A stretch of 64,000 nt of DNA from Thauera terpenica 58Eu (GTDB lineage: Bacteria > Pseudomonadota > Gammaproteobacteria > Burkholderiales > Rhodocyclaceae): the NCBI RefSeq assembly GCF_000443165.1, contig NZ_ATJV01000070.1, positions 1 through 64,000 of the forward strand, in the 5' to 3' direction. Below, piece after piece: positions 1 to 28,919 of this stretch. Below the pieces are notes generated by a model. It was not told the DNA's origin. It did not search any database and saw only the letters and a program-made list of their open reading frames with translations. The position numbers and the translations under genes were made by a program. How positions within the stretch are numbered: the stretch's first letter is position 1; every line of letters starts with the position of its first letter.

Positions 1-1486
1 CCACGGCGCGCTCCACGGTGCTGCGCAAGCCGGGCGACAGGCCCTGCGCGCGCGCCGGTCGCCACGCCGCCGCTGCGGTGGGCAGCGCCTGGGCGGCGCC
101 GGCAAACCAGCCGTCGGCGCGCACGCGGCCAAAGCTGTCGAGCTGGCGCAGTACCGCGGGGCACAGGCTGGCGTCCACCCAGCGCTCGGCCTGCTGGGCG
201 TGGCGCGGCGCGATGGCCAGGCGCTCGGCCAGGTGGCGGCCGGCCGCGCGGGTCTGTTCGGCCAGCGCGTCCAGGTGCGGCCAGGGGGCCTCGGGGTTGA
301 CGTGGTCGGGCGTGACCGGCGACACGCCGCCCCAGTCGTTGACACCGGCCTCGATCAGCGCCGCCAGCTGCCCCTGCTGCAGGTTCGGCGGCGCCTGGAT
401 CGACATCCCGGCGCCGAAGATCAGCCGCGCCGCCGCGATCGTCCACTGGTGGTCTTCCACGCTCGGCTCGGGCGAGTCGGCCATGCGCGTGCCCGGCTTG
501 GCGCGGAAGTTCTGCACGATGATTTCCTGCAGGTGGCCGAACTCGTCGTGCAGCTCGCGCAGCGCGAGCAGCGCCTCGATGCGTTCGCGCCGCGTCTCGC
601 CGATGCCGATCAGCAGGCCGCTGGTGAAGGGCACCGCCCGTTCGCCGGCCGCACGCAGCGTAGCCAGGCGGGCTGCGGGGTGCTTGTCGGGCGAGCCCCA
701 GTGCGGGCCGGACTTCTCGCATAGCCGCGGCGAGGCCGACTCCAGCATGATGCCCATCGACACCGACACCCGGCGCAGCCGGGCCAGGTCCTCGGCGGCC
801 ATCAGGCCGGGGTTCAGGTGCGGCAACAGGCCGGTCTCCTGCCACACGAGGCGAGCCATCGCCTCCAGGTAGCGCAGCGTGCTGTCGTAGCCCATGGCGT
901 CGAGCGCAGCGCGGGCGGCGGGGTAACGCGCCTCGGGCTGGTCGCCCAGCGTGAACAGCGCCTCGCGGCAACCGGCGGCCTGCCCGGCGCGGGCGATGCT
1001 CAGCACCTGCTCGGGGCTCAGGTAGGGCGCGGCAAGGCCGCGCGGCGCCTGGGCGAAGGTACAGTAGTGGCAGACGTCGCGGCACAACTGCGTGAGCGGA
1101 ATGAACACCTTGCGCGAGTAAGTGACGATGCGCCCGTGCCCGGCGAGGGTGAGGTCCTGGGCGCGCTGCAGCAGCCCGGGCAGGTCGGCAGCGCCGCCAT
1201 CGGCCAGGGCCAGGGCCTCATGGACCGACAGGCGCGCGCTCAACGGGTCGCTCACAGCGTCACCGTCGGCTGGTTCGGAGCGGGTGGGGTGGTGTGCCAT
1301 GGCAGACTCCTCGGATGGGGGGGAAGGAAACGGAGCGCCGTGATCGGTCTCGACCTGGAGGTCGATGCGAGGCTCGCCGCGGGTGGCGGCCGGGCGGATC
1401 AACATTGGCAGATCGGCAGGTTCGTCGACGTTGAAGGCCGGGCTGGTGCCGCCGAGCACTCCGATGGTGCGGGCGTCCGGGCTCAT
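1..1486 (-). CDS. fbiC: FO synthase FbiC (CofG domain and start of CofH), partial
   Basis: Radical SAM enzyme making the deazaflavin chromophore FO of coenzyme F420. The cluster LCRDVCHYC (C-x3-C-x2-C; Cys135, 139, 142 from this start) lies just after SYSRKVF-type residues, as in the CofG half of FbiC. The rest of the CofG domain follows, with GESASPRLCEK-like, ENFRAKPGT-like and WGGVSPVTPDHVNP segments. At the window edge the frame still reads through SPGLRSTVERA, like the linker into the CofH half, so a fused FbiC is likely; it is cut by the window edge. The ATG at 1486 overlaps the kinase stop (ATGA). An in-frame ATG at 1300 with a GAGGAG ribosome site is a good alternative start, 62 codons shorter. 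Last visible gene of a six-gene minus-strand operon. The family call is firm, the start is not. Confidence 0.85.
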   Translation of the reverse strand, partial: MSPDARTIGVLGGTSPAFNVDEPADLPMLIRPAATRGEPRIDLQVETDHGAPFPSPPSEESAMAHHPTRSEPADGDAVSDPLSARLSVHEALALADGGAADLPGLLQRAQDLTLAGHGRIVTYSRKVFIPLTQLCRDVCHYCTFAQAPRGLAAPYLSPEQVLSIARAGQAAGCREALFTLGDQPEARYPAARAALDAMGYDSTLRYLEAMARLVWQETGLLPHLNPGLMAAEDLARLRRVSVSMGIMLESASPRLCEKSGPHWGSPDKHPAARLATLRAAGERAVPFTSGLLIGIGETRRERIEALLALRELHDEFGHLQEIIVQNFRAKPGTRMADSPEPSVEDHQWTIAAARLIFGAGMSIQAPPNLQQGQLAALIEAGVNDWGGVSPVTPDHVNPEAPWPHLDALAEQTRAAGRHLAERLAIAPRHAQQAERWVDASLCPAVLRQLDSFGRVRADGWFAGAAQALPTAAAAWRPARAQGLSPGLRSTVERAV

Positions 1487-2547
1487 GCGGGCACCTTGGG
1501 GGCGGGAAGGTCGGGGGTATCGGAGAGTGCGCCGGCGGCCAGGGCCTCCAGCGCAGGCAGCTCGGCGGTGAAGCAGGCGAACTGCTGGTGTGCGAAGCCG
1601 GCGTCGAAGCCGAAACGGCAGCCCTCCAGCATCATCTGCAGGGCGCCGCGGGCCTGGTAGGCGCGGCGGCGCCACAGCGCGTCGGCCGGCAGCGCGGCAT
1701 CGGCCAGGCAGCGGCCGTAGCCGGCCCAGAAAGCGGTGGGCAGGTCCAGGAAGCCGAAGATCCACTCGGCCGACGGATCGCCGAAGAAGGCGCGTTCGGC
1801 GTCCAGCAGCGCACTGATCACCCAGCCGTCCGGGCCCTGACGCACCAGCACATTGCGGGTCCACAGGTCACCATGCACCAGCCGCGGCGCCTCGCCCGGA
1901 CGCAGGGCAGCGTCGAGCCGGCCACGCTCGCGCCGCAGCCGGGCCTGGAAGTCGTCCAGTCCTGGCACCGCCACGCCCTGTTCGGCGAGGTCGGTGGCCA
2001 GACCGTCGACCAGCGCGATGAACCAGGACGACACCGAGCCGTGCGCTGAAGCTGGCGCCGGGAAGCCACAGCGATCCCCGCGCAGCGCGTGCAGGCGGGC
2101 GACGAGTTCGCCGTACTGCCGCCACAGGCGCTGCTGGTCGGTGGCGGGGATGCGCGGCAGGACGCTCTCCCACACCTCGCCTGGCCGGCATTCGAAGACG
2201 GCCCAGTCGCGCGGCACCTGGCGCCGGCCGGTGTCGAGATGCAGCAGCGCCGGGATCACCTCGCCCAGCGTGCGCAGCAGCGGCAGCACGCTGCACTCGC
2301 GCTGCAGCAGCGCGCGCTCGTGGCGCCACAGCCGGGCACCCTCAGGCGGACCCAGGCGCAACACCACCGGGGGGCGCCCGGTCAGATCGAGCCGGTAGCT
2401 GGTGTTGAAGTGGCCGCTGCCCATCAGTGCCGCGCAGCTCAGCTCCACCGGCTGGCCCAGCGCCTCGCGACACAGGGCCTGCAACAGGGCGGGCTCCACC
2501 TCCTGGCGCAGCACGGGTGTCCGGCGATCGACGGCCACGAAGTGCAT
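1483..2547 (-). CDS. APH-fold small-molecule kinase
   Basis: 354-aa aminoglycoside-phosphotransferase-fold protein. It carries the Brenner motif HGDLWTRN (residues 225-232) and the metal-binding DAE (249-251) followed by FFGDPSAEW. The N-lobe has VVLRLG where APH kinases hold the nucleotide. The start is the ATG with AAGGGGAG nine bases upstream. It begins 20 bp after the acyl-CoA ligase and its stop overlaps the FbiC ATG, so it is translationally coupled to fbiC. The family includes antibiotic kinases but also homoserine, choline, fructosamine and acyl-CoA-dehydrogenase-associated kinases. The operon context argues for a metabolic substrate rather than drug resistance. The substrate is unknown. 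Confidence 0.8.
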   Translation of the reverse strand: MHFVAVDRRTPVLRQEVEPALLQALCREALGQPVELSCAALMGSGHFNTSYRLDLTGRPPVVLRLGPPEGARLWRHERALLQRECSVLPLLRTLGEVIPALLHLDTGRRQVPRDWAVFECRPGEVWESVLPRIPATDQQRLWRQYGELVARLHALRGDRCGFPAPASAHGSVSSWFIALVDGLATDLAEQGVAVPGLDDFQARLRRERGRLDAALRPGEAPRLVHGDLWTRNVLVRQGPDGWVISALLDAERAFFGDPSAEWIFGFLDLPTAFWAGYGRCLADAALPADALWRRRAYQARGALQMMLEGCRFGFDAGFAHQQFACFTAELPALEALAAGALSDTPDLPAPKVPA

Positions 2548-2567: not shown

Positions 2568-4184
2568 TCACGCGGCGGCCACGAGGTGCGCGCCGCCCGC
2601 GCAGAAGTCCTGCAGCAGGAGGCGCTCCTGCGGTTTCTCGGAGGCGGTCTTCGGAATCTCGGCCAGCACCTGCAGCCAGCTCGGCACCGCGTTGGCCTCC
2701 AGCGCCGCGCGGCAGTGCGCGAACACGGTCGCGGCGTCGAAACGGGCAGCGTCCACCGGCACCACCGCGGCCACCAGGTCGCGCTCGCCGGTGGCGCCCG
2801 AGGCGGCCGGCACGCCGTAGATGTACACGTCGTCGACCTGCGGGTGCTCGGCCACCACGCGCTCGACCACCGCCGGATTGATGAAATCGCCGTTGCGGCG
2901 GATGCCGCCGCCCTTGCGGTAGTCGTAGTACAGCCAGCCCTCGGCGTCGCGGTGGCCCATGTCGCCGCTGCGGTTCCAGCCCGCCACGATCTTGCGCTGC
3001 GAAGCCTCGGGGTTGTTGTGGTACTCCACGCGAGCCGCGCTGCCGTCGCCGGGGCGGCAGCAGATCTCGCCGATCACGCCGGGCGAGCATTCGTTGCCGT
3101 CGTCGTCGAGCACCTTCATCTGCACGCCGAACACCGGCTTGCCGAACGAGCCCACCGGCCCGTGGCCGGGCGGGTTGCAGGCCATGCCGCCGCCGTCGCT
3201 GGCGCCGTAGATCTCGAACAGCTGCACGCCGTAGCGCTGCTCGAAGGCGCGCCACAGCACCGCCGGCATGCCCGAGCAGATGATCAGGCGCACCGGGTTG
3301 TCGCCATCGTCGGCGCGCGCGGGCTCACTGTAGATCGCGGTGGCCATGCCGCCCAGCACCGCGAAGGAAGTGCAGCCATACCGGCGGGCGATGTCCCACA
3401 GCCGCGACTTGGTGAAGCGCCGGCTGATCACCGCCCGGTAGCCGAACTTCAGCGCCGGCAGCAGTGCGGTGGTCTGCGCGTTGTTGTGGGTGAACGACAG
3501 GCCGGTGTAGGGCCGCTCGTCGGCCTGGTAAGCGAAGAGCTGCGCAACGTAGGGCGTGCTCCCCAGGCGCCGGTGGTCGCCGACGATGCCCTTGGGGTCG
3601 CCGGTGGTGCCCGAGGTGTAGATGATCTGGATCGGGTCGTCGAGCTGCACATCGGCGGCCTCGACCTCGGGACCGTCGGTGGCCAGCGCCGTGGCGATGT
3701 CTTCCACGCCCTCGGCGCCTGCTACCGCAGCCAGCCCCGGCTCGCCGCTGTCGATGGCCAGCAGCCACTGCACCGAGGGCGCCGCGGTGCGCGCGGCCAG
3801 CACCTCGGCGAGCGCGTAGTCGGCGGTGATCACGCCGCGGCAGGCCGAGTCGTGCAGCATGAAGGCCAGGCGCGACGCCGGGGTACGCGGGTCGATCGGC
3901 ACGAACACCGCGCCGAGCAGCGACGCGGCGACCATCGCCTCGACGAACTCGGGGTGGTTGCGCATCACCAGCGCGAAGCGCTCGCCGCGGCCCAGGCCCA
4001 GCGCCGCCAGCCGTGTGGCCAGCCGGTTGCCACGGCGCCACAGGTCGGCGTAGGTGCGCACTTCGTCGGGCGTGGCGCCGCCGTCGAGGCTGAAGTGTTC
4101 GAAGGTCAGCACATCGCGGTGGGGCTGTTCGGCCGCCTTCAGCGCGATCAAGTCCGACAGGATCAGTTCATTTCGTGTGCGCAT
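2568..4184 (-). CDS. AMP-forming acyl-CoA ligase (class I adenylate-forming)
   Basis: 538-aa ATP-dependent acid-CoA ligase. The P-loop-like motif IIYTSGTTGDPKG is at residues 187-199, the adenine motif EIYGASDGGG and the GDMGHRDAEGWLYYDYR motif follow, and the C-terminal catalytic lysine region reads IPKTASEKPQ. Overall it resembles CaiC/long-chain type ligases. It would activate a carboxylic acid to its CoA thioester for the thiolase and dehydrogenase in the same operon. It starts 11 bp after the thiolase stop. The exact substrate cannot be read from the sequence. Confidence 0.88.
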   Translation of the reverse strand: MRTRNELILSDLIALKAAEQPHRDVLTFEHFSLDGGATPDEVRTYADLWRRGNRLATRLAALGLGRGERFALVMRNHPEFVEAMVAASLLGAVFVPIDPRTPASRLAFMLHDSACRGVITADYALAEVLAARTAAPSVQWLLAIDSGEPGLAAVAGAEGVEDIATALATDGPEVEAADVQLDDPIQIIYTSGTTGDPKGIVGDHRRLGSTPYVAQLFAYQADERPYTGLSFTHNNAQTTALLPALKFGYRAVISRRFTKSRLWDIARRYGCTSFAVLGGMATAIYSEPARADDGDNPVRLIICSGMPAVLWRAFEQRYGVQLFEIYGASDGGGMACNPPGHGPVGSFGKPVFGVQMKVLDDDGNECSPGVIGEICCRPGDGSAARVEYHNNPEASQRKIVAGWNRSGDMGHRDAEGWLYYDYRKGGGIRRNGDFINPAVVERVVAEHPQVDDVYIYGVPAASGATGERDLVAAVVPVDAARFDAATVFAHCRAALEANAVPSWLQVLAEIPKTASEKPQERLLLQDFCAGGAHLVAAA

Positions 4185-4195
4185 GAGCAGCCTTC

Positions 4196-5395
4196 TCAGC
4201 GCACCAGCACTGCGATGTTCATTGCAGCCACTTCGCCGCGGATGCTGCCGCCGCCGTTGTGGGTCAGGCCCACCTTGGCGCCGTTTACCTGGCGCTCGCC
4301 GGCACGGCCCTGCAGCTGGCGGGTGATCTCGAAGACCTGCGCCAAGCCGGTGGCGCCCACCGGATGGCCCTTGCGCAGCAGCCCGCCGGAGGTGTTGACC
4401 GGGACGCGCCCGCCCAGCCGGGTGTGGCCGTCCCGCAGCAGGGCCACGCAGTCTTCGGGCCGGGCCAGACCGAGGTGATCGTAAGTCAGCAGCTCCGTGA
4501 TGACCGAGCTGTCGTGCAGCTCCACCACGTTCAGGTCCTCGGGGCCCACGCCGGCGTCGGCGTAGGCTTGGGCGATGGCGAGCGTGGTCACGGTCTCCTC
4601 GGCCTGGGGCGGGTGCTCGAAGTACGAGTACACCACGCTGGAGACCAGCCGCACCGGCTTGCGCAGGCCCAGCTGGCGCGCCTTGCGCTCGCTGACCACC
4701 ACCGCCGCTGCGCCGCCGTCGCCCAGCGGGCAGATCATCGGCCGCGTCAGCGGGGCCGAGACCACCGGCGCGGCCAGCACCTCGTCCACGCTCATCACCT
4801 TGCGGAACTGCGCGTTCGGATTCAGGCTGCCGTGCAGCGAGTTCTTGACCGTGACCAGGGCGAAGTCCTCCAGCGTCGAGCCGTAGGTGGCCATGTGCTC
4901 GCGCGCCAGCTCGCCGTAGAAGTCGACGAACATCGAGCGGTTCTGACCCGAGCCCTCGGTGTGGTCGGCCATGAAGCGGTCGCGCTCCTCCACATCCACC
5001 GCGCCGCCCAGCGCCGCGTAGCTCACCGCCTTGTTCTCGTGGTAGAGCTTCTCGAAGCCCATCGCCACCACCACGTCGTAGTAGCCGGCCGAGACCATCA
5101 TCGCCGCCTGGTTCAGCGCGGTGGAGCCACTGCCGCAAGCGTTCTCGATGTTGATGATGGGCACCCGGCCCAGGCCGATGTCGAGGAGCGCGACCTGGCC
5201 ACGGATCGACTCCTGGCCGGTGACCAGGCCGGCCGCGCAGTTGCCGCTGTAGACGGCCTCCACGTCGCCCAGGCCCAGCCCGGCGTCTGCCAGCGCGGCC
5301 AGCACCGGCTGGCCGGCCAGCCATTTCAGGCTCTTGTCCAGGTGCTTGCCGAAGGGCGTCATGCCGACGCCGGCGATCACTGCGTTGAGTCGCAT
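4196..5395 (-). CDS. Thiolase-family protein (SCP-x type)
   Basis: 399-aa thiolase-superfamily protein. The nucleophile is Cys87 in NIENACGSGS, a His sits in LLRKGHPVGATGLAQ, and the protein ends with THNGGGSIRGE instead of the classic C-terminal CxGGG cysteine, as in SCP2/lipid-transfer thiolases. These cleave or condense branched or cyclic acyl-CoAs such as sterol side chains. It lies 20 bp downstream of the nitroreductase and 11 bp upstream of the ligase. Whether it is a thiolase or a retro-aldolase partner cannot be told; no DUF35 partner is seen nearby. Confidence 0.85.
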   Translation of the reverse strand: MRLNAVIAGVGMTPFGKHLDKSLKWLAGQPVLAALADAGLGLGDVEAVYSGNCAAGLVTGQESIRGQVALLDIGLGRVPIINIENACGSGSTALNQAAMMVSAGYYDVVVAMGFEKLYHENKAVSYAALGGAVDVEERDRFMADHTEGSGQNRSMFVDFYGELAREHMATYGSTLEDFALVTVKNSLHGSLNPNAQFRKVMSVDEVLAAPVVSAPLTRPMICPLGDGGAAAVVVSERKARQLGLRKPVRLVSSVVYSYFEHPPQAEETVTTLAIAQAYADAGVGPEDLNVVELHDSSVITELLTYDHLGLARPEDCVALLRDGHTRLGGRVPVNTSGGLLRKGHPVGATGLAQVFEITRQLQGRAGERQVNGAKVGLTHNGGGSIRGEVAAMNIAVLVR

Positions 5396-5415: not shown

Positions 5416-6204
5416 TCAGAGCATGCCGCTGCGCGGCAGGTTGTAGCGCGCGCGGATGGCCTCGACCTCCGCCTCGCGGCCCGGCAGCGGCGCGGCGACC
5501 TGGATCATGCCGCTGGCCTGCAGCTCGGCCGTGACCGCAGGGTCTCGCGGGAAGGGCTGATCATAGCTGTTGAGCTGGAACAGCTGCTCGAACGGCAGGC
5601 GCGGGCGCTGGCCGCCGCCGTCGGCGCTTTCCACCGGATAGCCCAGCGTTTGCGCGGCGGCGATGCGGCAGGTGTCGGGCAGCTTGAAGGCCTTGCGGGT
5701 GCGCTCCCAGTTGGGCGAGCCCTGCAGGCACATGCCCAAGCCCAGCTCGATGCCCACCAGCGTGGCCTGCGCGATCGCCTGGCCGAGATCCATGTCCACC
5801 AGGCCGGGGGCCTTCAACGCATCGGCGCCCTTGGTGAACATCGGCACCAGCGTGCGCTCCAACTCGTCGTGGCGGTCGGGGCCGTAGCCCAGGGCGCCGA
5901 CGGAGACCAGCTCGCGCAGACGCTGGCCGGCGTCGTTCATCGCCAGCGTCTCGATGTACCAGAGGATCACAACCGGCGCCTGCTGGATCTGGAAGCCGCC
6001 CACCGGCGAGGGCAGGCACTCGAGCTGCTCGGCGCTGGCGGTGGCGCGGTTCACCACCAGAGCGCGGGCGGCGTTGTTGTTGCCGAAGTGCGAGGCCAGA
6101 CGGGCGGCTTCGAGCATCTTCTGGATCTTCCACATCTCCACCGGGCGGTCCGGGTCGAGGTAGCGTAAGGAGCGGCGGGCGCCGATGGCTTGCTGGAGTT
6201 CCAT
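5416..6204 (-). CDS. Nitroreductase-family flavoprotein
   Basis: 262-aa FMN-dependent nitroreductase-fold protein. The N-terminus ARRSLRYLDPDRPVE is the family's RRSxRxF-like FMN-binding start, followed by a NNNAARALVV segment and a C-terminal GYPVE motif after the GLGMCLQG helix. Family members reduce nitro groups, quinones, enones or flavin-like cofactors with NAD(P)H. It sits between an acyl-CoA dehydrogenase and a thiolase in an operon that ends in fbiC. A reductase of an enoyl/dienyl intermediate fits, and a role in reducing a dehydro-F420 precursor (as in the FbiB C-terminal domain) is conceivable but unproven. Confidence 0.75.
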   Translation of the reverse strand: MELQQAIGARRSLRYLDPDRPVEMWKIQKMLEAARLASHFGNNNAARALVVNRATASAEQLECLPSPVGGFQIQQAPVVILWYIETLAMNDAGQRLRELVSVGALGYGPDRHDELERTLVPMFTKGADALKAPGLVDMDLGQAIAQATLVGIELGLGMCLQGSPNWERTRKAFKLPDTCRIAAAQTLGYPVESADGGGQRPRLPFEQLFQLNSYDQPFPRDPAVTAELQASGMIQVAAPLPGREAEVEAIRARYNLPRSGML

Positions 6205-6286: not shown

Positions 6287-7501
6287 TCAGAGCCGCGCAG
6301 CGGCCATCAGGCTGAGGACGTAGTTCTCGCCGTCCTCGATCATCGAGGTGCGGGCATCGCGGAACAGCTTCTCGACCGGGTACTCGTAGGTGAGGCCGTT
6401 GCCACCGAGCATCTGCAGCGCCTCGCTGGCCACCTCGAAGGCGGTCTGGGTGGCGTAGACCTTCACGGTCGCCGCCTTGGCATAGGGCAGCATGCCGCCG
6501 GGCGCGGTGGCCGCGGCGATGGACATGCGGCGCACGTGCGAGCGCATCACCTCCACCTTCTGGAACATGCCGAACAGCCGCAGCTTGACCGCCTGGTGTT
6601 CGATGATCGGGCGTCCGCCCTGCACCCACTGCCTGGCGTAGTCGCGCGCGCACTCGTAGGCGGCGCGCGCCACACCGACGAGCTGTGCGCCCATGTGCAC
6701 GTTGGCGCCGGTGAAGAGGGCCTCCCAGATCATCGGGTAGGCCTGCGGGCCCTCGGCGATCAGGAAGCGGCGCGGCACGCGCACGTTGTCGAAGAAGATC
6801 TCGCCCTGGTTGAGCGCGCGCTGCCCCAGCTTCTCCAGTGGCTTGCCGCGACTGATGCCGGGCAGGTCCAGCGGCATCATGAAGGCCGCCCCGTCCGCCA
6901 GGCCGACCGGCGAATCCTGGAAGCTGGCGAACACCGCACCTGAGCCGGCGATCGTGCCGCAGGACACCCAGGCCGACTTCTGGCCGTCGAGCACATAGTC
7001 GTCGCCGTCGCGCCGCACCTTCAAGGTGGGCTTGATGCGGGGGTCGCGGTAAGCCGGTTCGGTGAAGGCGACGTGGTCGCTGCCGTGCGAGGGCTCCGTG
7101 ACGGCCAGGCAGCCCAGTTCGTCGCGGGCGGCGAAGAACTCCGCCAAGTCCTGGCGGCCGAACGACGCGGCGAAGGTCGGCATCATCTGGTGCAGTGCAC
7201 AGGTGACGAACAGGCCCACGTCGCCGGCGGTCAGCTCCTCCAGCACGATACAGTGCAGCAGCGCGTGCTGCGCCGGACTCAGATCCGGCGCGGCGATGCT
7301 GGCGCCACCGCCGAAGCCCAGCGCCTTGTACCGGGCCAGCACGTCCCACAGCTCGGAACCGGGGGCGATCGCCTGCTCGGCCGACAGCCGGTCCAGTCGG
7401 GCGCCAGCGGGTCGCAGCACCTCCGTGGCAAAGCGCCGGCAGGTGTCACGGATGGTGCGCATTTCGTCGGTGACGCCGACATCGTTGTCCAGATCGTCCA
7501 T
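6287..7501 (-). CDS. Acyl-CoA dehydrogenase
   Basis: 404-aa flavin acyl-CoA dehydrogenase, first gene of the operon. It has the FAD/substrate motif LAVTEPSHGSDH, the central WVSCGTIAGSG segment and the QMLGGNGLTYEYPVE helix. The C-terminus reads IEDGEN where TYEGTxx normally supplies the catalytic Glu. Electrons would go to ETF. The ATG at 7501 follows an AT-rich region with two tandem repeats that are probably the operator. Substrate unknown. Confidence 0.85.
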   Translation of the reverse strand: MDDLDNDVGVTDEMRTIRDTCRRFATEVLRPAGARLDRLSAEQAIAPGSELWDVLARYKALGFGGGASIAAPDLSPAQHALLHCIVLEELTAGDVGLFVTCALHQMMPTFAASFGRQDLAEFFAARDELGCLAVTEPSHGSDHVAFTEPAYRDPRIKPTLKVRRDGDDYVLDGQKSAWVSCGTIAGSGAVFASFQDSPVGLADGAAFMMPLDLPGISRGKPLEKLGQRALNQGEIFFDNVRVPRRFLIAEGPQAYPMIWEALFTGANVHMGAQLVGVARAAYECARDYARQWVQGGRPIIEHQAVKLRLFGMFQKVEVMRSHVRRMSIAAATAPGGMLPYAKAATVKVYATQTAFEVASEALQMLGGNGLTYEYPVEKLFRDARTSMIEDGENYVLSLMAAARL

Positions 7502-7656: not shown

Positions 7657-8337
7657 TCAGGTCACCGAGGGCGGCACGCGCATCAGGCCGCCGCGCAGCA
7701 TGCGCTCGAAGGTGCGCATGCTGCGCGCGAACTCCTCATGCGACGCTACCTCGCCGTGCATGCCGGCGAGCCGGGTCATGCAGGCCGAGAGCACCCTCAC
7801 ACCGGCATCGATGTCGACGTCCGGGTCGAGCTCACCGCGGCGATGAGCGCGTTCGAGCAGCTCGCGGAACAGCATCGGGAAGGCTTCGCTGCCTTCGTCG
7901 CGGCTGATCCTGAGTTCCGGGTGTCGCAGGATCTCGCCTACGGCCAAGCCGGCAAAGCGCATCACTTCGGGCCGCTGCCCGGCGAATTCGATGGCCCGCT
8001 CCACCCCCAGGCTCAGCTGCTGCATGCTGGGGGCGTCGGGCGCCTCCAGGGCGCTGGCTCGGTAGAGATCGAGCAGCTTGAGGTTGACATCCATGACCGC
8101 CGCGCGGAACAGCGCTGCCTTGTCATCGAAGTAGTGGTACAGCAGGCTGCTGGTCACCCCGGCGAAAGCGGCGATCTCGCGGTTCGTCGTGGTGGCGTAG
8201 CCACGCGCCGCGAAGCAGTGGATCGCGGCATCCACGATGGCCTGGCGCATGTCGCCGAGCTGTTCATCGGCCGGAGGTCGGCCAGGCCCGCGCTGCCTGC
8301 GCGGTTTGACGGCGTTCGTTCTTGATGCGGTGAGCAT
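7657..8337 (-). CDS. TetR/AcrR-family transcriptional regulator
   Basis: 226-aa one-component repressor. The N-terminal helix-turn-helix reads AARGYATTTNREIAAFAGV then SLLYHYFDDKAALF (about residues 42-78), the TetR signature. The C-terminal ligand domain has no specific match I recognise. It precedes the acyl-CoA dehydrogenase operon on the same strand, with the tandem repeats in between, so it probably controls that operon in response to an acyl-CoA or free acid. Confidence 0.85.
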   Translation of the reverse strand: MLTASRTNAVKPRRQRGPGRPPADEQLGDMRQAIVDAAIHCFAARGYATTTNREIAAFAGVTSSLLYHYFDDKAALFRAAVMDVNLKLLDLYRASALEAPDAPSMQQLSLGVERAIEFAGQRPEVMRFAGLAVGEILRHPELRISRDEGSEAFPMLFRELLERAHRRGELDPDVDIDAGVRVLSACMTRLAGMHGEVASHEEFARSMRTFERMLRGGLMRVPPSVT

Positions 8338-8417: not shown

Positions 8418-8540
8418 TTAGCGGATCGTGGCCGGGCGTGCCTTGATGACTACCTCCAGGCGATCCGCGCGCGCCCCGGTCAGCTGCCGCACCAGGGAGA
8501 TCCTGCCGTGATCCACATGGCCGGCGGTGGCGACGATCAT
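8418..8540 (-). pseudogene. selB: Remnant of selB (N-terminal 40 codons)
   Basis: The ATG overlaps the selA stop (ATGA), the normal selA-selB arrangement. The peptide starts MIVATAGHVDHGRISLVRQL, plainly the G1 region of the selenocysteine elongation factor, but GHVDHGKT has become GHVDHGRI, losing the P-loop Lys and Thr. After DRLEVVIKARPATIR the frame stops. The other 600 or so residues (GTPase, winged helices) are absent and the next gene is an unrelated TetR gene. So the gene is truncated and inactivated here. Confidence 0.75.
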
Positions 8541-9946
8541 GTCAATGCCTCCGGCAAGGCGATCCACTGCACGAGAAAATCGCCTTCGCTTTCCAGGCAG
8601 CGGCAATCCAGCAGCAGGCGGCCACTCGAGAGGCGCCCGATGATGGGTAGCGGCAGGCCACGCAGCGCTGCTGCCAGGCTGCGCAGCTCGCCGTCATCGC
8701 CCGACAAGGGCGCGATCTCGAGGGCGGCGCTGGGCAGGGTCTCCACTGGCAAGGCGCCGCTGCCGATCAGGCTGTGACAGGGCACCACCGTGAGCCGGAA
8801 GCGCGCGCCCAGCGCCGCAGCGATGGCTGGCTGCACACGCCTGGCCTGAGCCTCGATGTCAGCCAGCGGCCGGGTCAGCAGGCGCAGGGTGGGCAGACGC
8901 TCCTTGAGCGTGGCGGGATTGCGGTAGAGCTTGAGGACTTCGGCCAGGGCCGCGAGATTGAGTTTGTCGAGGCGCAGCACCCGCTTCAAGGGATTCTTGC
9001 GGATGCGCTCGATCAGCTCCCTGCGCCCGGCGACGATGCCGCACTGCGGCCCACCCAGCAGCTTGTCGCCGCTGAAGGTGATCACGTCCGCGCCCTGGGC
9101 CACGGTGGCGGCCACGGTGGGCTCGGCGGGCAGGCCGAGGGCGGCGAAATCCACCAGGCTGCCGCTGCCCATGTCCACCACGAAGGGTAGCCTGCGCTCA
9201 TGCGCCAGGGTGGCCAGGGCTTTTTCATCCACGCTGTGGGTGAAGCCCTCGACGCGATAGTTGCTGGTGTGCACCTTCATCAGCAAGGCCGTGTGCTCGC
9301 CGATGGCACCCGCGTAGTCCTTCAGATGGGTGCGATTGGTGGTGCCCACCTCCACCAGGTGACAGCCGGCGCGGGCCATGATCTCGGGCACCCTGAAGGA
9401 GCCGCCGATCTCCACCAGCTCCCCGCGAGAGGTGGGCACTTCGCGCCCCAGAGCCAGGGTATTGAGGACGAGGAAGATCGCCGCCGCGTTGTTGTTGACC
9501 ACGGTGGCCGCTTCGGTGCCGGAGAGCTCGCAGATCAGGGCTTCGACGTGCTTGTCGCGCTCTCCGCGCTTGCCCTGGGCCAGATCGAATTCCAGGGTGG
9601 ATGGAGCCGTGGCCACCGCCACCATGGCCGCCACCGCCTCAGCGGGCAGCAGGGCACGGCCGAGGTTGGTGTGGAGCACGGTGCCGGTGAGGTTGAACAC
9701 CGAGCGCAAAGTGGGCTGGTGACGAGCCTGCAGTTCAGCCTCCACGCGCTGGCTGAAAACCTCGTCGGCGACCAGCGCCGGACGGCCGTGATCGAGTTGC
9801 TGCCGCAGTTGCGCCTGCACGCCGCGGATTGCCCGACTGACCTCGCCATGACCATAGCGCGCGACAGCGTCACTCATCTGCTGCAGCATGGTTTCGACTG
9901 AGGGTAGGGCTCGACGCGGGTCCGGGGCCGGCATGGGGGCGTTCAT
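8537..9946 (-). CDS. selA: L-seryl-tRNA(Sec) selenium transferase
   Basis: 469-aa PLP enzyme converting Ser-tRNA(Sec) to Sec-tRNA(Sec). It is full length for the family, with the N-terminal ALPSVETML start, NLTGTVLHTNLGRALL, and the PLP lysine Lys295 in TFSGDKLLGGPQCG. ATG at 9946 with GGAGAT upstream; an in-frame ATG at 9934 is possible. It appears intact, yet the coupled selB is only a stub, and no selD or tRNA-Sec gene is visible in the window. It is either a leftover or works with a selB elsewhere. Confidence 0.93.
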   Translation of the reverse strand: MNAPMPAPDPRRALPSVETMLQQMSDAVARYGHGEVSRAIRGVQAQLRQQLDHGRPALVADEVFSQRVEAELQARHQPTLRSVFNLTGTVLHTNLGRALLPAEAVAAMVAVATAPSTLEFDLAQGKRGERDKHVEALICELSGTEAATVVNNNAAAIFLVLNTLALGREVPTSRGELVEIGGSFRVPEIMARAGCHLVEVGTTNRTHLKDYAGAIGEHTALLMKVHTSNYRVEGFTHSVDEKALATLAHERRLPFVVDMGSGSLVDFAALGLPAEPTVAATVAQGADVITFSGDKLLGGPQCGIVAGRRELIERIRKNPLKRVLRLDKLNLAALAEVLKLYRNPATLKERLPTLRLLTRPLADIEAQARRVQPAIAAALGARFRLTVVPCHSLIGSGALPVETLPSAALEIAPLSGDDGELRSLAAALRGLPLPIIGRLSSGRLLLDCRCLESEGDFLVQWIALPEALT

Positions 9947-10260: not shown

Positions 10261-11415
10261 ATGACCGCGAAATCGCCACAAGGCGCCTTGGATATTGAGG
10301 ATGGCCTTGTTTCAGGACGCCTCTGGGACGAGTACTGCGACGCGATCAAGCGCGTTGGCCGCCACCTGTTGAGGCCGGAGGCCCCCCGTGACGCTTTCAA
10401 CCAGGCCGAGGGCGTGCGCTATCTGACAAGGATGGTGCGCGCCGGGCTCGAATTGATGGTGGAAGCGGGCACACCCGAATTCCCACGCTTTTCCGACCCT
10501 GCCGGCGGTTTCATCAAGATCGGCGGCGACAACCCCGACAACCTTTACCTCAGCACCCCGATCAGCGGCGAGCTGGAATACCGCATTCACGGCCAGCGCG
10601 GCGACGCACCGACGATCAACTTCGCGACCAAGAACGGGGGCTACCAGAAGCCGGGGGCCAAAATGCTGGGCACGGGCTTTCTCGACGGACGTGAGCTGGA
10701 AGTCGATGAAGGCGGGAATTTCGAGATCCTGGTCTCGGCCAGGCGCCCGCCATCAGGAAACTGGTTGCCGATGGAGCCCGACAGCAATCTGCTCCTCATC
10801 CGTCAGACCTTCCACGACCGGCGCAGCGAGCACGCCGCACAGCTGCACATCGAGCGCCTCGGCAGCACCGACGCCCCGCCAGCGCTGGACCCCCAGGCCT
10901 TCGTGGGCCAGCTCATGGCCGCAGCCCGCTACACCGAAAACACGGTGAAGCTGTTCACCGACTGGGCAGCGCACTTCAAGCGTGAACATCACAACACGCT
11001 GCCCCTGGGCGAGCAGAGCATGTTCCAGGCTGCGGGCGGCGACCCCAACATCACCTACTACCACGGCTACTGGGAGCTCGCCGACGACGAGGCCATGGTG
11101 ATCGAGGCCAGCCTGCCACCCTGCGAGTTCTGGAACTTCCAGGTCGATAACTTCTGGATGGAGTCGCTCGACTACCATTGCCAGCGCATTCACCTGAATT
11201 GCCATGGCGCCCGCCTCAACCCGGACGGCAGCGTCACGATCGTGGTCGCGCACCGCGATCCGGGACATCCGAACTGGCTCACCACCGCTGGCCACGCGCT
11301 GGGCACCAGCCTGTTCCGTCTGATCGGGGCGCAAGACAGGCCTGCGCAGATCAAGGTCCGGATCGTCAACTTCGATACGCTGACGGGAGGGCGCGAGCAT
11401 GGATCTCAAGCTTGA
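10261..11415 (+). CDS. DUF1214-domain protein
   Basis: 384-aa protein of unknown biochemical role. The C-terminal part (SLPPCEFWNFQVDNFW, then NPDGSVTIVVAHRDPG and PNWLTTAGHALGTSLFRLIG) is the DUF1214 domain. There is no signal peptide. Three consecutive ATGs (10255, 10258, 10261) follow a GAAGGAG site; the last has the best spacing. It overlaps the downstream sulfotransferase gene by 17 bases, and an SDR follows, so the three are one transcriptional unit. Such trios occur near steroid- or terpenoid-type catabolic genes, which fits the surroundings. Confidence 0.75.
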   Translation: MTAKSPQGALDIEDGLVSGRLWDEYCDAIKRVGRHLLRPEAPRDAFNQAEGVRYLTRMVRAGLELMVEAGTPEFPRFSDPAGGFIKIGGDNPDNLYLSTPISGELEYRIHGQRGDAPTINFATKNGGYQKPGAKMLGTGFLDGRELEVDEGGNFEILVSARRPPSGNWLPMEPDSNLLLIRQTFHDRRSEHAAQLHIERLGSTDAPPALDPQAFVGQLMAAARYTENTVKLFTDWAAHFKREHHNTLPLGEQSMFQAAGGDPNITYYHGYWELADDEAMVIEASLPPCEFWNFQVDNFWMESLDYHCQRIHLNCHGARLNPDGSVTIVVAHRDPGHPNWLTTAGHALGTSLFRLIGAQDRPAQIKVRIVNFDTLTGGREHGSQA

Positions 11416-13489: not shown

Positions 13490-15118
13490 TCAGAAGGTGT
13501 ACTTCACCACCATGGACAGCTGATCACGGTCGGTCAGCTGACGATTCTTGACTGAATCGAGGCTGGCATCGCCAAAATAGCCCAGGTAGGTCAGGCCGAT
13601 CTGCAGGTTGCGCCGGTAAGTCATCGTCGCGCCCACGCTCAGGCGGTGATCACCCTCACCCATGCCCAGGTTGCCCTGCAGCGTACGGCCCTTGAGCTGA
13701 CGCGAGTAGCTGATCGGCACACCCAGTTCCCAGTTCTCGATGATGCCCGGGTAGGTCAGACTGAGCGTCGAGGCAAAGGCCAGGCCATAGCTGCCGAAGC
13801 TGAGCGAGTCAGACGCAAGCGTAGGAACGAGACCCAACGAAGTATCACCAGTGGCACCCGGCACGCGTCGTGCGTCGGGGTTACGCACGTCCGTATAAGC
13901 CAGCTCCGCAAGGAAATTGGCCTGCGGTGCGAGGAAAGTCCGTCCGAGGTTGATGAAAGTGTTGACGTTAGTCTGAAGTACGTCGGCCTTGGTAGCCGTA
14001 GGAATAGGAGTTGCGCCTGCAGGTCCCAAACGTGTCTTCACCAGCGCTGGCGCATCCTTGCGGTAGGAAACTTCCGCTCCGAGCGTCGCAATCCCCAAGC
14101 TGGTGCTGAAGGTCGCACCGAGCATCTTGATGTCTTCAAAGTAGCGATGGCGGAAGTTTGGGGCCCTGGGATTAGAGACATAGTCGATATCGACCATCGG
14201 CGCGCGATCATGGTAGTTCAGGTAGATCAGGCCGACTTCGGTTTCATCGGTCACCCGATACTTCGCACCCACACCCCACTGCCCAGTCTTGCCCGGAGCT
14301 TCATCCTGGGCACGGGGCGTCGTGCACACACGCTGACCGCCGATCATGGCATATCCGAGGCAGCTTGCCCCCGGGCCGACAATGTCCGAGGTGCTCATGA
14401 ACGAGCCGGGCGCGTTGACGATCGTCTTGTGCCAGTTGTATTGAACGTGCGCCATCAGCGACAGCTTGTCGGTGGCTTCGTACAGCATCGAGATCTGGTC
14501 TTCCGGCAGCAACTGATCCTTCACCTCGGTACCGGGCACACCCGCCTTGGTGCCGTCGGCAGGCCCTTGCGCACCTGAGATACCCGGAATGAAGAGGGTC
14601 TCGCCCCAGGAAACCACGTGCTTGCCCAGGCGCAGGGTCGCACGCCCCTGATCACCGACGTCAAATGAAGTGTAGCCATAGACGTCCAGCAAGCGACTGT
14701 AGCCCCCGTGGTAACGCTTGGTGTCGCTCGAGAAGCGATTTGCCGGGCCACTCTTGTTCGGGTAGGTGGCGACGCTGTTGTCGTTGCTGCTGTGATACAC
14801 ATCATCGTAGAAGGTACTGGCCGACACGATGAAGCCGGAGGCCCCCTTCTTGAAATGCGTGTCAAGCAACAGGCTGACGCGGTTCGATGTGAGCGCGCCC
14901 TTGTCGAAGTTGTTGTTGCCGTCGTTGCCCGAAGCATTGCCAGCCAGCAGCTTGTCTCGGCCTTCCAGGCGGGTGGACAAGGTGTAGGTGGAGGTCAGGC
15001 GTGACTCGAACACCGCGCCATTGGCAAACTCGACCGCCTCGAAGGCCATCGCCGGCGCCATCGCGCCCATCCCGATCACGGCCAGCGCGATGGGCTTGAT
15101 CTTCTTGTGCAGCTTCAT
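13490..15118 (-). CDS. DUF1302 outer-membrane protein
   Basis: 542 aa. A signal peptide (MKLHKKIKPIALAVIG... ending AMAFEA) is followed by many short amphipathic, aromatic-rich strands and a C-terminal MVVKYTF. The terminal Phe is typical of beta-barrel outer-membrane proteins, and the DUF1302 family is predicted to be such a barrel. It starts 25 bp after the DUF1329 gene. The DUF1329-DUF1302 pair is repeatedly found with hydrophobic-compound (steroid, terpene, alkane-like) degradation genes, so uptake across the outer membrane is the likely job. This role is inferred. Confidence 0.82.
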   Translation of the reverse strand: MKLHKKIKPIALAVIGMGAMAPAMAFEAVEFANGAVFESRLTSTYTLSTRLEGRDKLLAGNASGNDGNNNFDKGALTSNRVSLLLDTHFKKGASGFIVSASTFYDDVYHSSNDNSVATYPNKSGPANRFSSDTKRYHGGYSRLLDVYGYTSFDVGDQGRATLRLGKHVVSWGETLFIPGISGAQGPADGTKAGVPGTEVKDQLLPEDQISMLYEATDKLSLMAHVQYNWHKTIVNAPGSFMSTSDIVGPGASCLGYAMIGGQRVCTTPRAQDEAPGKTGQWGVGAKYRVTDETEVGLIYLNYHDRAPMVDIDYVSNPRAPNFRHRYFEDIKMLGATFSTSLGIATLGAEVSYRKDAPALVKTRLGPAGATPIPTATKADVLQTNVNTFINLGRTFLAPQANFLAELAYTDVRNPDARRVPGATGDTSLGLVPTLASDSLSFGSYGLAFASTLSLTYPGIIENWELGVPISYSRQLKGRTLQGNLGMGEGDHRLSVGATMTYRRNLQIGLTYLGYFGDASLDSVKNRQLTDRDQLSMVVKYTF

Positions 15119-15143
15119 GATTACTTCCTCAAAGTCGATGTGA

Positions 15144-16526
15144 TCACTGGCCCATGGCGCGCAGCGCGGCGGGGGTATACATGTCCGGGGTCAGACCACC
15201 GGCATTGAGAACGTAGGCCTTTTCGCGCTCCTGGATGAGGTTGAAACCGACATAGGTGCCCGAGTTGAGGTCGTGATAGAACGAGGTGCCCGCCTGCCAG
15301 GCATTGAGGTCGAATGCGTAGTAGTGGTTGATGAAGGCGTGCTGCCACAGCTCACCGCGGGTGTCGTAGTAGTCACCCACCGAGGCATGCCAGTTGTCTT
15401 CGTCAATGAACATCACGCGCTTGCCGTAGGCGTGGCGATAGCCTTCCTTGAGCGAACCTTCGAGCACCCACACGCGGTGCAGCTCGTAGCGCAGCAGGTC
15501 GGGGTTGGCGTGACCCTTTTGCAGCATGTCGGCGTACTTCACGTTCTTGCTGTGCAGGCGATAGGAACTGGCCGGGATGTACATTTCCTTCTTGCCCAGC
15601 AGCTTCCACTCATAGCGACTCGGGTCGCCGTTCATCAGACGGTCCTGATCGATCGTCATCTTGCCCGAGGTGGCGCCCATGGGCGAGTCGAAGCCGTAGG
15701 TGGGCAGCTGGCGCACGCGGCGGGTGCCCGGATCATACTGCCAGGCCAGGCGCTTGTTCCGGGCAAAGTTGACCGGCTCCTGCGACCCAGTGAAGCTGCC
15801 GCGGTCGCGCTCGGGCAGCAAGGTGCCCGACAGCGAATAGGCCATCAGCCCTTCCATCGGCTTGCCGATTTGATCCGGCGAAGTGACGACGTTGAGGTTC
15901 TTGTTGATCTGGCGACCCCAGGTGATGGCGCCGTCCGAGCCGATGTCGGCGATGTCGCGCACGATTTCCTCGGTATAGGCGCGGTAGGGGAAGTTCATGT
16001 TGGCCAGGACTTCCATCGGTGCCTTCGGAATCGGGAAGCCGATCGAGCCCTTGTAGCCGGTATACCCCAGCCCGTCATCGATCAATTCAGCTTCAAGAGC
16101 GTTCTTCTTGGCAATCTCGCAGATCTGATCCGGGTAACGGAAGTCCCGGTGGGTCTGATAGACCGGGATACGGAAGGTATCCGGGAAGCGCTTGAACATG
16201 GCCTGCTGACCCGGGCTCAGCTTGTCGGCGTACTGAGCCATGTTGGCCGCGGTGATCTGAAACAGCGGCTTTTCTTCCGGATAGACATCGACCGGATGCT
16301 GGCCGACGTGCAAGGTGTATTCAACGTGGGGGGGCTTGCCCAGCCACTTGCCGGAGAAGGCGGGAATGCTGCCATCGGCGTTGCCAGCGACTTCGGCGCC
16401 GACGCAGGTCAGCTCCTTGCCCAGTTTGGCCGCTTCAGCTTCGCTCACCTTGGCCATCACGGTGCTCGTCATCAGTGACAACGCAATCGTCGTCATGACC
16501 GGTACCCAGACGCGGGTTTTAATCAT
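15144..16526 (-). CDS. DUF1329 periplasmic/outer-membrane-associated protein
   Basis: 460 aa with a signal peptide (hydrophobic residues 8-25, ending VMAKVSE). The body is the DUF1329 family: LGKELTCVGAEVAGN and the C-terminal half with YKMYIPASSYR-like and VGDYYDTRGELWQ segments. The fold resembles lipoprotein-carrier (LolA/B-like) shells that handle hydrophobic ligands. First gene of the operon with the DUF1302 barrel. A candidate operator lies 130 bp upstream. Confidence 0.82.
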   Translation of the reverse strand: MIKTRVWVPVMTTIALSLMTSTVMAKVSEAEAAKLGKELTCVGAEVAGNADGSIPAFSGKWLGKPPHVEYTLHVGQHPVDVYPEEKPLFQITAANMAQYADKLSPGQQAMFKRFPDTFRIPVYQTHRDFRYPDQICEIAKKNALEAELIDDGLGYTGYKGSIGFPIPKAPMEVLANMNFPYRAYTEEIVRDIADIGSDGAITWGRQINKNLNVVTSPDQIGKPMEGLMAYSLSGTLLPERDRGSFTGSQEPVNFARNKRLAWQYDPGTRRVRQLPTYGFDSPMGATSGKMTIDQDRLMNGDPSRYEWKLLGKKEMYIPASSYRLHSKNVKYADMLQKGHANPDLLRYELHRVWVLEGSLKEGYRHAYGKRVMFIDEDNWHASVGDYYDTRGELWQHAFINHYYAFDLNAWQAGTSFYHDLNSGTYVGFNLIQEREKAYVLNAGGLTPDMYTPAALRAMGQ

Positions 16527-20128: not shown

Positions 20129-21238
20129 ATGGCCACAACAAAAGACTATCGCCTTGGTGAATTCACCTTTCCGCGCGGCTGGTTCATGATCGCGGAAGCG
20201 TCCGAGCTCGACACTCACAAGCCCCTTTCGGTGCGCTTCTTCGGCCAGGATTTCGCACTCTACCGTGGCCGCGAAACCGGCAAGGTGGTGTTGCTCGACG
20301 CCTACTGTCCGCACATGAAGACGCACCTTGCCGCACCCAACACCACCTCCTACGTCGTCATCGACGGCGGTGGCTCCAACGTCGAGGGGGACGACATCCG
20401 CTGCCCCTACCACGGCTGGCGCTTTGGCGCCGACGGCAAGTGCAACGACATCCCCTATCACGAGGGTCAGATCCCGGCCGCCGCGAAGGTCAAGTCGTGG
20501 ACGGTGGTCGAGAGCCTGGGCGCGATCTGGGTGTGGTACGACCCCGAAGGCGGCGAGCCGGAATGGGAGCACCCCAGCCTCAAGGAATGGGACGATCCGT
20601 CCTGGGTGCGCTGGAAGTTCGATCACCTCGGCATCCTCAACCAGCACCCGCAGGAAGTCATCGACAACATCTGTGACTACGGCCACCTGAGCCCGATCCA
20701 TGGCTCGACCGTGCAGAAGTATGAGAACGAGTTCCAGGGCCACCACGCCATTCAGCGCCAGTGCGGCCCGCACCGCACCCTGGTGGGCGAAAACGGCGTC
20801 AGCCCGGTGCTATCCACGGTCACCGTCTATCACGGTCCGGGCGTGCTGATTTCGCACCTTGGTGGCCTGTACGAAGCCGTGCTGTTCATCACCCACACCC
20901 CGGTCGAGGACGGATCGATCAAGGTCTGGCATGCCCTGCTCGTCAAGTCACCCAGCGGCAGCGCAGTGACCACCCGCACCGACATGATCGCCGCCCGTCA
21001 ATTCCAGGAGTCCAGCCGCCTCGCCTTTGCGCAGGACTTCGAGGTGTGGACCAACAAGGGCCCGTGCCTGAACGGTCTGTTCATTCCCAGCGACGGCCCC
21101 TTCATGAAGGCGCGCATCTGGTACAAGCAGTTCTTCAACCCGCGCGCCAAGAAGCACGAATACCTCGAGCAGTGCGAAGGCTTCTACGTGCCCAAGGGCA
21201 TCGCGCCCTTCACTGACGACGCGCCCGCAGCAGCCTGA
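20129..21238 (+). CDS. Rieske non-heme iron oxygenase, KshA-like
   Basis: 369-aa terminal oxygenase subunit. The Rieske cluster is Cys60-x-His62 (YCPHMKTHL) and Cys92-x2-His95 (RCPYHGW); the spacing between pairs (29 residues) is longer than usual because of an NTTSYVVIDGGGSN-type insert. The mononuclear iron site is DYGHLSPIH (Asp183 bridge, His186, His191). The family includes 3-ketosteroid 9-alpha-hydroxylase and related ring hydroxylases. ATG at 20129 with AAGAGGAGG. It needs an external reductase, and none is encoded nearby. The substrate is inferred to be a cyclic hydrophobic compound. Confidence 0.87.
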   Translation: MATTKDYRLGEFTFPRGWFMIAEASELDTHKPLSVRFFGQDFALYRGRETGKVVLLDAYCPHMKTHLAAPNTTSYVVIDGGGSNVEGDDIRCPYHGWRFGADGKCNDIPYHEGQIPAAAKVKSWTVVESLGAIWVWYDPEGGEPEWEHPSLKEWDDPSWVRWKFDHLGILNQHPQEVIDNICDYGHLSPIHGSTVQKYENEFQGHHAIQRQCGPHRTLVGENGVSPVLSTVTVYHGPGVLISHLGGLYEAVLFITHTPVEDGSIKVWHALLVKSPSGSAVTTRTDMIAARQFQESSRLAFAQDFEVWTNKGPCLNGLFIPSDGPFMKARIWYKQFFNPRAKKHEYLEQCEGFYVPKGIAPFTDDAPAAA

Positions 21239-27554: not shown

Positions 27555-28832
27555 GTGAGCCCGCCTGCCATCCACACCGAGGACCTGCACGGCGCACCGA
27601 GTTGCAGCCTGCCACCGCTGCCCCCGGGCCGTCTTTACCGCTACCACGTCATGGTCAAGCCCGCCGGCGCGCTGTGCAATCTGGACTGCCCCTACTGCTT
27701 TTACCTGCACAAGACCGATCTGCTGGCGCACGAGCGCAACGCGCGCATCGACGACCGCCTGCTCGAGACCCACATCCGCCAGTACATCGAAGCCCAGACC
27801 GGCGACGAGGTCATCTTCTCCTGGCAGGGGGGCGAACCGACGGTGATGGGGCTGGGCTTCTTTCGCCGCGTGGTCGAGCTCCAGGCGCGTCATCGCAAAC
27901 CGGGCCAGCGCATCGAGAACGACCTGCAGACCAATGGTCTGCTGCTCGACGATGAGTGGGTGGCCTTCCTCAAGACACACGGCTTCGTGGTCGGTCTCAG
28001 CGTGGACGGCACGCGCGAACTGCACGACCGCTACCGCCCCACCAAGGGCGGCGAGCCCAGCTTCGACCGCACCCTCGCCGCCGCCGCCAGGCTGGCCGCA
28101 GCCGAAGTGCCGTTCTCCTTGCTGTGCGTGGTCAATCGCGACGTGGCGCGCGCCCCGCTCGAGGTGTATCGCAGCCTGCGTGCCATCCCGGGCAGCTTTC
28201 GCATCCAGTTCACGCCTTGCGTGGAAACGCGCGACTTCAAGCTGCGCGCACCCGGCCTGGCGCGCAGCGCCGACATGCCATTGCTGGGTACGCCGCGCAG
28301 CCGCCCCGGCCATCCCCTGGCTATCGTCACCGAGTGGTCGGTGGATGCGCGCGACTACGGCGAATTCCTGTGCACGCTGTGGCGCGAATGGCTGACGCAG
28401 GACTTCGGCCGCCTGCACATCAACGTGTTCGAGACCGCGGTGGCGCAGGCGCTCGATCTGCCGGCGCAGATGTGCACCAGCGCGCCGGTGTGCGGCAAGG
28501 CGATGGCGCTCGAGCATGACGGTGAGCTGTATTCCTGCGACCACTTCGTCTACCCCGAATTCCGCCTTGGCAACATCCGCGATGTACACCAGGGCGATCT
28601 GGCCTTCTCGCAGCAACAGACGCGCTTCGGCCTCGCCAAGCACGACAGCCTGCCCGGCTGCTGCAAGCGCTGCCCACAGCTGAAGCTGTGCTGGGGCGAG
28701 TGCCCCAAGAACCGTCTGCTGCGCAGCGCCGAGGGCGAACCCGGTCTGAACTACCTGTGCGAAGGCCTGAAGCGCTTCTACGCCCAGGTGCAGCGCGACA
28801 TGCCTGACATCCGGCAACGCCTGGGGCGCTGA
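27555..28832 (+). CDS. Anaerobic sulfatase-maturating enzyme (radical SAM, SPASM)
   Basis: 425-aa radical SAM enzyme. The S-adenosylmethionine cluster CNLDCPYC (Cys41, 45, 48) is followed by SWQGGEPTVMGLGFF and QTNGLLLDDEW, typical of anSME. The C-terminal half holds the SPASM auxiliary clusters, with cysteines in PVCGKAMALEHDGELYSCDHF and CCKRCPQLKLCWGECPKNR. It oxidises an active-site Ser or Cys of a sulfatase to formylglycine. GTG start at 27555. The next gene is a sulfatase with a Ser-type motif, its probable partner. Confidence 0.92.
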   Translation: MSPPAIHTEDLHGAPSCSLPPLPPGRLYRYHVMVKPAGALCNLDCPYCFYLHKTDLLAHERNARIDDRLLETHIRQYIEAQTGDEVIFSWQGGEPTVMGLGFFRRVVELQARHRKPGQRIENDLQTNGLLLDDEWVAFLKTHGFVVGLSVDGTRELHDRYRPTKGGEPSFDRTLAAAARLAAAEVPFSLLCVVNRDVARAPLEVYRSLRAIPGSFRIQFTPCVETRDFKLRAPGLARSADMPLLGTPRSRPGHPLAIVTEWSVDARDYGEFLCTLWREWLTQDFGRLHINVFETAVAQALDLPAQMCTSAPVCGKAMALEHDGELYSCDHFVYPEFRLGNIRDVHQGDLAFSQQQTRFGLAKHDSLPGCCKRCPQLKLCWGECPKNRLLRSAEGEPGLNYLCEGLKRFYAQVQRDMPDIRQRLGR

Positions 28833-28919
28833 GCACTGAGCCCCGCGCCACCCACAACTCAAACCCCTGCCAGCCCCTGAGCCGGCACCCCCACCAAAAA
28901 ATACAAAGGAGACGCCACC

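Follow-up and report, generated by a model that had tools for sequence, protein, structure and literature searches.

The fbiC gene at the left edge of the analysed DNA encodes one of two FO synthases of its genome: the explanation that accounts best for the data, and that we consider quite probable, is that its product, FbiC2, is a probably active second FO synthase, whose gene has been displaced from the standard F420 operon and is co-transcribed with a catabolic operon. Both halves of an FO synthase use radical SAM chemistry: the CofH half couples 5-amino-6-ribitylaminouracil with tyrosine, and closure of the deazaflavin ring falls to the CofG half, after which CofC, CofD and CofE make F420. 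The two domains of FbiC2, the split of its gene over two contigs, the other genes of the pathway and the order of the operon are read directly from the sequence. The displacement would have taken the following course: a break inside cofC would have separated fbiC2 from an npdG-cofE-cofD-cofC-fbiC operon, leaving the tail of cofC in front of fbiC2; the gene would now be transcribed with a TetR-headed, fatty-acid/steroid-type catabolic operon, the induction of which would raise the supply of FO. Any benefit of such co-expression is a guess, and fbiC2 may be a passenger. Neither the enzyme nor the kind of host is new, and F420 in proteobacteria has already been published; what makes the case interesting is that the genome has a second fbiC, that this gene has likely been displaced and that the two copies have diverged to unequal degrees.

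The window, i.e. the whole stretch of DNA that was analysed, comprises the opening 64,000 bases of a contig of 213,770 bp (C70), and base 1 of the window is therefore an assembly edge. Searched for CofH, the genome has two regions that score over the cut-off: an 802-aa frame on contig C48, and C67:26810-27850, close to where this contig of 27,939 bp ends. C67 at its end and C70 at its start have 72 identical bases in common, an exact overlap between draft contigs on which the joining of the two is based; across this overlap the frame stays open to the stop, with 879 residues from base 1489 and about 816 aa from the likely start. The two parts of the gene are the following:

window 2..1300, minus strand: 5' part of fbiC2, CofG domain (TIGR03550, 456 bits)
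C67:26717-27939, minus strand: continuation of fbiC2, CofH (TIGR03551, 493 bits), 72-nt overlap, continuous frame

The CofH half that the original prediction had proposed to look for to the left of base 1 is thus present at the end of C67, over its cut-off, and the possibility of a solitary CofG has been rejected.

The identification of an FbiC-type FO synthase has been confirmed for both halves: the CofG domain scores 456.2 bits against a cut-off of 213.35, covering model positions 1-321 of 322, and the CofH half scores 493 bits against a cut-off of 374.1, its place in the same frame depending on the contig join. The C-x3-C-x2-C cluster that had been reported for the CofG domain is present as C-R-D-V-C-H-Y-C (CRDVCHYC), the same spacing recurs in the CofH half as CGYRCSFC, and the CofG models far outscore those of other radical SAM families, the best model outside CofG/CofGH being MqnC with 60 bits. 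Against the whole-protein equivalog PRK09234 (cut-off 1018 bits), the two halves, scanned apart, give 578 and 559 bits. FbiC2 is therefore predicted to be a full-length bifunctional FO synthase that is probably active; the enzyme itself is ordinary, and it is its placement that is unusual. As for the extent of the gene, which had been given as positions 1 to 1,486, the CofG frame stands (it runs on the minus strand from base 1489 to base 2), but the start does not: the ATG at 1486 is in frame and overlaps the stop of the kinase gene, while the ATG at 1300 is preceded by GAGGAG, six bases upstream, and the homology of FbiC2 to the other copy, FbiC1, does not set in before residue 85 of the translated frame; for these two reasons, we take 1300 as the likely start.

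Upstream of fbiC2, from the acyl-CoA dehydrogenase gene to the kinase gene, all genes lie on the minus strand with a spacing of -4 to +82 bp, and the acyl-CoA dehydrogenase, nitroreductase, thiolase, ligase and kinase that had been described together with fbiC have all been identified by Pfam:

1483..2547, minus strand: APH-family kinase (PF01636, 86 bits)
2568..4184, minus strand: AMP-binding acyl-CoA ligase (PF00501, 227 bits)
4196..5395, minus strand: thiolase of the SCP2/lipid-transfer type (PF22691, 123 bits)
5416..6204, minus strand: nitroreductase-superfamily flavoprotein (PF00881, 49 bits)
6287..7501, minus strand: acyl-CoA dehydrogenase (PF00441, 96.5 bits)
7657..8337, minus strand: TetR-family regulator (PF00440, 57 bits), 155 bp before the acyl-CoA dehydrogenase

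The order along the minus strand is TetR, acyl-CoA dehydrogenase, nitroreductase, SCP2-type thiolase, AMP-binding ligase, APH kinase, fbiC2, SDR and a second SDR, with the TetR-family regulator as the probable head of the unit; directly upstream of the TetR gene, at window positions 8537-9889 on the minus strand, lies a gene for SelA, the L-seryl-tRNA(Sec) selenium transferase (TIGR00474, 568 bits). The original prediction had fbiC close the polycistron, which does not hold, since the unit continues on C67 with the CofH half and two SDR genes, the first of which has 8 nt in common with the end of fbiC2, an overlap that suggests co-translation.

The other genes of the F420 pathway, which the original prediction had named for checking, are all present in the genome, over their cut-offs: cofE and cofD lie together at about 129.6-131.3 kb of C70, and C48 carries, in a row, npdG (197 bits, cut-off 150), cofC (153 bits, cut-off 105) and fbiC1, so that the genome is predicted to encode the whole pathway. 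The second complete FbiC is encoded as follows:

C48:280172-282580 (L001:10172-12580): fbiC1, 802-aa frame

Directly behind fbiC1, at C48:282634-283290 (L001:12634-13290), there is a gene for a MocA-like NTP transferase (TIGR03310, 92 bits, below the cut-off of 186), which may serve either the molybdenum cofactor or F420. With the CofH half and the remaining F420 genes in place, and with the CofG domain grouping with its own family, neither of the two outcomes that had been named as refuting the prediction has occurred. F420-dependent reductases are represented in the genome by five likely candidates: of five bacterial-luciferase proteins, one belongs to the MsnO8 group and the other four score above the cut-off for an F420-type subfamily, two with TIGR03617 and two with TIGR03619, while one FDOR protein passes TIGR00026. 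All of the F420-type LLM proteins and the FDOR protein are located outside the fbiC2 operon; one of the former and the latter lie within about 20 kb of fbiC1. The C-terminal domain of FbiB (TIGR03553) has no match over the cut-off in the genome, the best one reaching 50 bits against 250.

For the comparison with relatives, we have used the best 80 of at least 581 related stretches, many of which carry npdG-cofE-cofD-cofC-fbiC in that order. Among the 61 of these best 80 that extend at least 6 kb upstream of cofG, cofE occurs anywhere in the locus in 51, cofD in 51, npdG in 43 and a recognisable cofC in 36; at least one of cofE, cofD and npdG is found in 53 of the 61 and none of them in eight, so that an orphan fbiC is not unique to the window genome. 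Across the order, 20 of 300 genomes, including that of the window, have a CofG/FbiC match at E<=1e-20 when no more than five candidates per genome are scored, and under the same limit on candidates the 19 other positive genomes have one FbiC match each; the eight other genomes of the same family among those listed in this search have no CofG/FbiC match at that threshold.

Where these relatives carry cofC, fbiC2 is preceded by a leader of 62 codons, which holds a short match to the C-terminus of CofC:

1379..1444, minus strand: probable remnant of the cofC C-terminus, SPAFNVDEPADLPMLIRPAATR, inside the leader at 1301-1486

The raw Smith-Waterman scores of this segment against CofC tails reach 55 with L048 and 47 with L040. 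Compared with the seven CofC tails that precede fbiC in the neighbourhood of FbiC2 in the tree, loci that were chosen with hits in three of them already known, its best score is matched by one of 2000 shuffles and its mean by none; compared with 54 tails (out of 62 CofC-like ORFs), the best is matched by two of 2000 and the mean by one. Profiles speak less clearly: neither of the two that we have built singles out the leader from the other frames of the window, since a profile of 52 tails (the 62 ORFs less ten without a recognised motif) gives it only 3.1 bits, with other window frames at up to 7.4 bits, and an earlier one of 63 sequences, which was spoilt by frames running on into FbiC, gives it -2.0 bits. 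The leader has an Asn at the first Asp of the D-x-D motif, the Asp pair of which, by our mapping, would correspond to two metal ligands of FbiD in the available portion of PMC8764529. Taken together, the leader is likely, though not proven, to be the scar of a standard npdG-cofE-cofD-cofC-fbiC operon.

The two copies of FbiC have diverged unequally. At 220 near-invariant alignment columns, the reference for which left out L036, FbiC2 is changed at one and FbiC1 at 11, whereas the 88 other rows, each left out in turn, average 1.4 changes with a maximum of five; in the tree, the end branch of FbiC1 measures 0.57 against 0.29 for FbiC2. Two of the changes in FbiC1, V to R and R to C, lie right in front of the cysteine cluster of its CofH half, and FbiC1 is a candidate for altered activity; three others (D to N, S to C and P to A) are found in the distant row L036 as well and are therefore not by themselves proof of lost function. 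In the tree of 91 rows (89 of 99 loci had both halves long enough), both copies are members of one set of 18 (SH-aLRT 98), apart from 15 FbiC rows of their own order; the other 16 rows of the set are alpha- and gammaproteobacterial or unplaced proteobacterial, with one record labelled as a planctomycete. Forcing FbiC2 together with the 15 same-order rows is rejected by the AU test (p = 0.0068), while forcing FbiC1 with the same rows is not (p 0.076); this group was drawn up after the tree had been seen, with the same-order L021 and L036, which fell elsewhere, left out and L023 and L037 absent from the tree. The results support an origin of fbiC2 outside the main FbiC clade of its own order. 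In trees of their own, cofED and npdG come out close to the same mixed clade and cofC is left without a starred group; these trees hold no pointer to which fbiC the genes travelled with. Elsewhere in the FbiC tree, the protein of Dictyobacter arantiisoli (Chloroflexota; L072) groups with the 15 same-order rows and one unplaced MAG (SH-aLRT 98), a placement that suggests a transfer between phyla.

These differences bear on the question of which copy is the older: fbiC2 might be the original and main FO synthase gene, and FbiC1 a duplicate that is diverging and whose activity is altered or weaker. We entertain this possibility tentatively and hold it to be somewhat improbable: the 11 changed columns of FbiC1, more than twice the maximum among the other rows, and its long end branch speak in its favour, as does the finding that FbiC1 and FbiC2 as sisters are not rejected (p 0.536, the tree so constrained lying 3.9 log units above the free tree); against it, FbiC1 keeps both C-x3-C-x2-C motifs, shares three of its changes with L036 and has its gene beside npdG and cofC, and the length of its branch makes the sister placement uncertain.

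The original prediction had offered two further accounts of the operon, an F420-dependent step in its pathway and a transfer of the whole unit, and neither is borne out. By the first, the operon would contain an F420-dependent step supplied by its own FO synthase, e.g. a nitroreductase-like protein using F420H2, and in its favour, a nitroreductase-like enzyme carries out the reduction of dehydro-F420, and a domain of this kind is part of FbiB, according to the available portions of PMC8764529 and PMC8498797. The overlap of fbiC2 with an SDR gene of the 3-alpha-HSD type points the same way, and so does G511, which has an fbiC and, alone among the 369 genomes apart from that of the window, a close homologue of the nitroreductase in the operon. 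However, in the scans made (for the first SDR, Pfam and PDB), no gene of the operon has matched an F420-dependent family; the oxidoreductases of F420 type are encoded elsewhere; and the nitroreductase has ordinary nitroreductases as its best PDB matches and is absent from the six TIGR03553 matches of the genome at E<=1, so that its candidacy as a dehydro-F420 reductase has been rejected. Close homologues of this nitroreductase are rare, occurring in two of 369 genomes of the class (E<=1e-40) and one of 398 of the phylum (E<=1e-30), the window genome being counted in both, compared with the 20 of 300 order genomes that have CofG/FbiC. G511 has homologues of the nitroreductase, the acyl-CoA dehydrogenase and the ligase within 7.4 kb (47, 45 and 52% identity), but its fbiC lies on another contig than this catabolic cluster. 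We thus regard an F420-dependent step in the operon as unlikely.

A joint acquisition of the catabolic genes and fbiC2 by horizontal transfer appears to us more doubtful still. It would agree with the exclusion of FbiC2 from the main same-order clade and with a mean GC3 that is 0.912 in nine gene calls of the block (two of them the contig pieces of fbiC2) and 0.841 in the 142 other genes sampled; but the window at about 42-58 kb is equally high in GC3, for which reason we have rejected GC3 as the mark of a transferred island, and the run of eight genes from window base 2 ranks only 7th of 128 runs. Homologues of the operon kinase and nitroreductase are found in none of the best 80 of at least 581 related loci, and the other operon genes are matched there at no more than 33% identity (thiolase in two, acyl-CoA dehydrogenase in eight, ligase in 13); the combined unit is therefore seen in none of these 80. 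A search of the related loci with a floor of 38% identity and 60% length returns no operon gene, and with the same floor finds other genes of the genome, among them the C48 FDOR (44%, in L103) and the window sulfatase (51%, in L047); in L103, the FDOR homologue, at 10433-10837, shares the locus with fbiC, cofC, cofE and cofD. The probable cofC remnant, lying at the junction, further suggests that the junction is secondary. The pairing of fbiC with the kinase and the nitroreductase therefore looks local, and given also the rarity of the nitroreductase homologues and the separate fbiC of G511, its link to this catabolic pathway is so far a single case.

Possible signs of a steroid-type operon are the first SDR, which resembles the 3-alpha-hydroxysteroid dehydrogenases 2dkn (230 bits) and 1fjh (219 bits), and the thiolase, the best PDB matches of which are the SCP2-thiolases 6hsj and 6hrv (207 bits each). 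Further along, the window and its contig hold the following:

window 13490-16472, minus strand: DUF1302 and DUF1329
window 20186-21238, plus strand: KshA_C Rieske protein, outside the operon
C70:133507-136314 (L015:15507-18314): alpha subunit of a type II DMSO-reductase-family molybdoenzyme (TIGR03479, 927 bits; ethylbenzene dehydrogenase alpha, 698; both below the cut-off)

On the strength of the KshA-type Rieske protein, DUF1302, DUF1329 and a ligase in the window that is similar to steroid-24-oyl-CoA synthetase (358 bits, below the cut-off of 750), a steroid-degrading organism is plausible. The molybdoenzyme alpha gene, the product of which presumably resembles steroid C25 dehydrogenases, lies downstream of cofE-cofD at a distance of about 2.2 kb and is separated from them by two genes, one of them for a presumed beta subunit. 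An anaerobic sulfatase maturase (TIGR03942, 442 bits) is encoded at window positions 27555-30479 on the plus strand, adjoining a sulfatase gene.

From this arrangement one might suppose that the supply of F420 is wired into the catabolism of steroids or similar compounds: an operon for side-chain/ring degradation would be transcribed together with a duplicated FO synthase, an ethylbenzene-dehydrogenase-like molybdoenzyme is encoded in the vicinity of cofE-cofD, and one LLM and one FDOR reductase of F420 type lie within about 20 kb of fbiC1. We consider this rather unlikely; if true, the same induction would bring up both F420 and the F420H2-dependent steps of the pathway, and the second FO synthase would be diverging in function. 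Our literature search has returned nothing that links F420 with steroids and, for a duplicate fbiC, no title on fbiC duplication among the papers listed. According to the available portion of PMC8498797, no F420-dependent reductase or F420-reducing dehydrogenase of non-actinobacterial producers had been experimentally investigated by 2021; two FO synthases in one genome, one of them inside a catabolic operon, offer a concrete place to ask what F420 does.

Compared with the FbiC of Actinobacteria and Proteobacteria, as described in that portion of PMC8498797, FbiC2 is alike in having both radical SAM halves in one frame, over the NCBIfam cut-offs and with the C-x3-C-x2-C clusters, and unlike in being a second copy in its genome, split over two contigs and located away from cofC, cofD and cofE. 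The C48 CofC is related to the 3PG-F420 pathway of Mycetohabitans (PMC8764529, available portion) in that its closest PDB entry is the 3-phosphoglycerate enzyme 7p97 (81.5 bits), and it differs in that the PDB alignment places a Gly at the position of Ser162 of the Mycetohabitans CofC, named there as the decisive residue; this replacement suggests that PEP or 2-PL is the more likely substrate and that ordinary F420 is to be expected, rather than 3PG-F420. With the proteobacterial F420 operon of L040, L042 or Cupriavidus numazuensis (L077), FbiC2 shares a close sequence relationship (CofG/CofH identity of 72/72% to L040, 67/70% to L042 and 66/62% to L077), and a cofC-like tail stands in front of fbiC2; it departs from that operon in its company, since of the F420 genes only the probable tail of cofC stands beside fbiC2.
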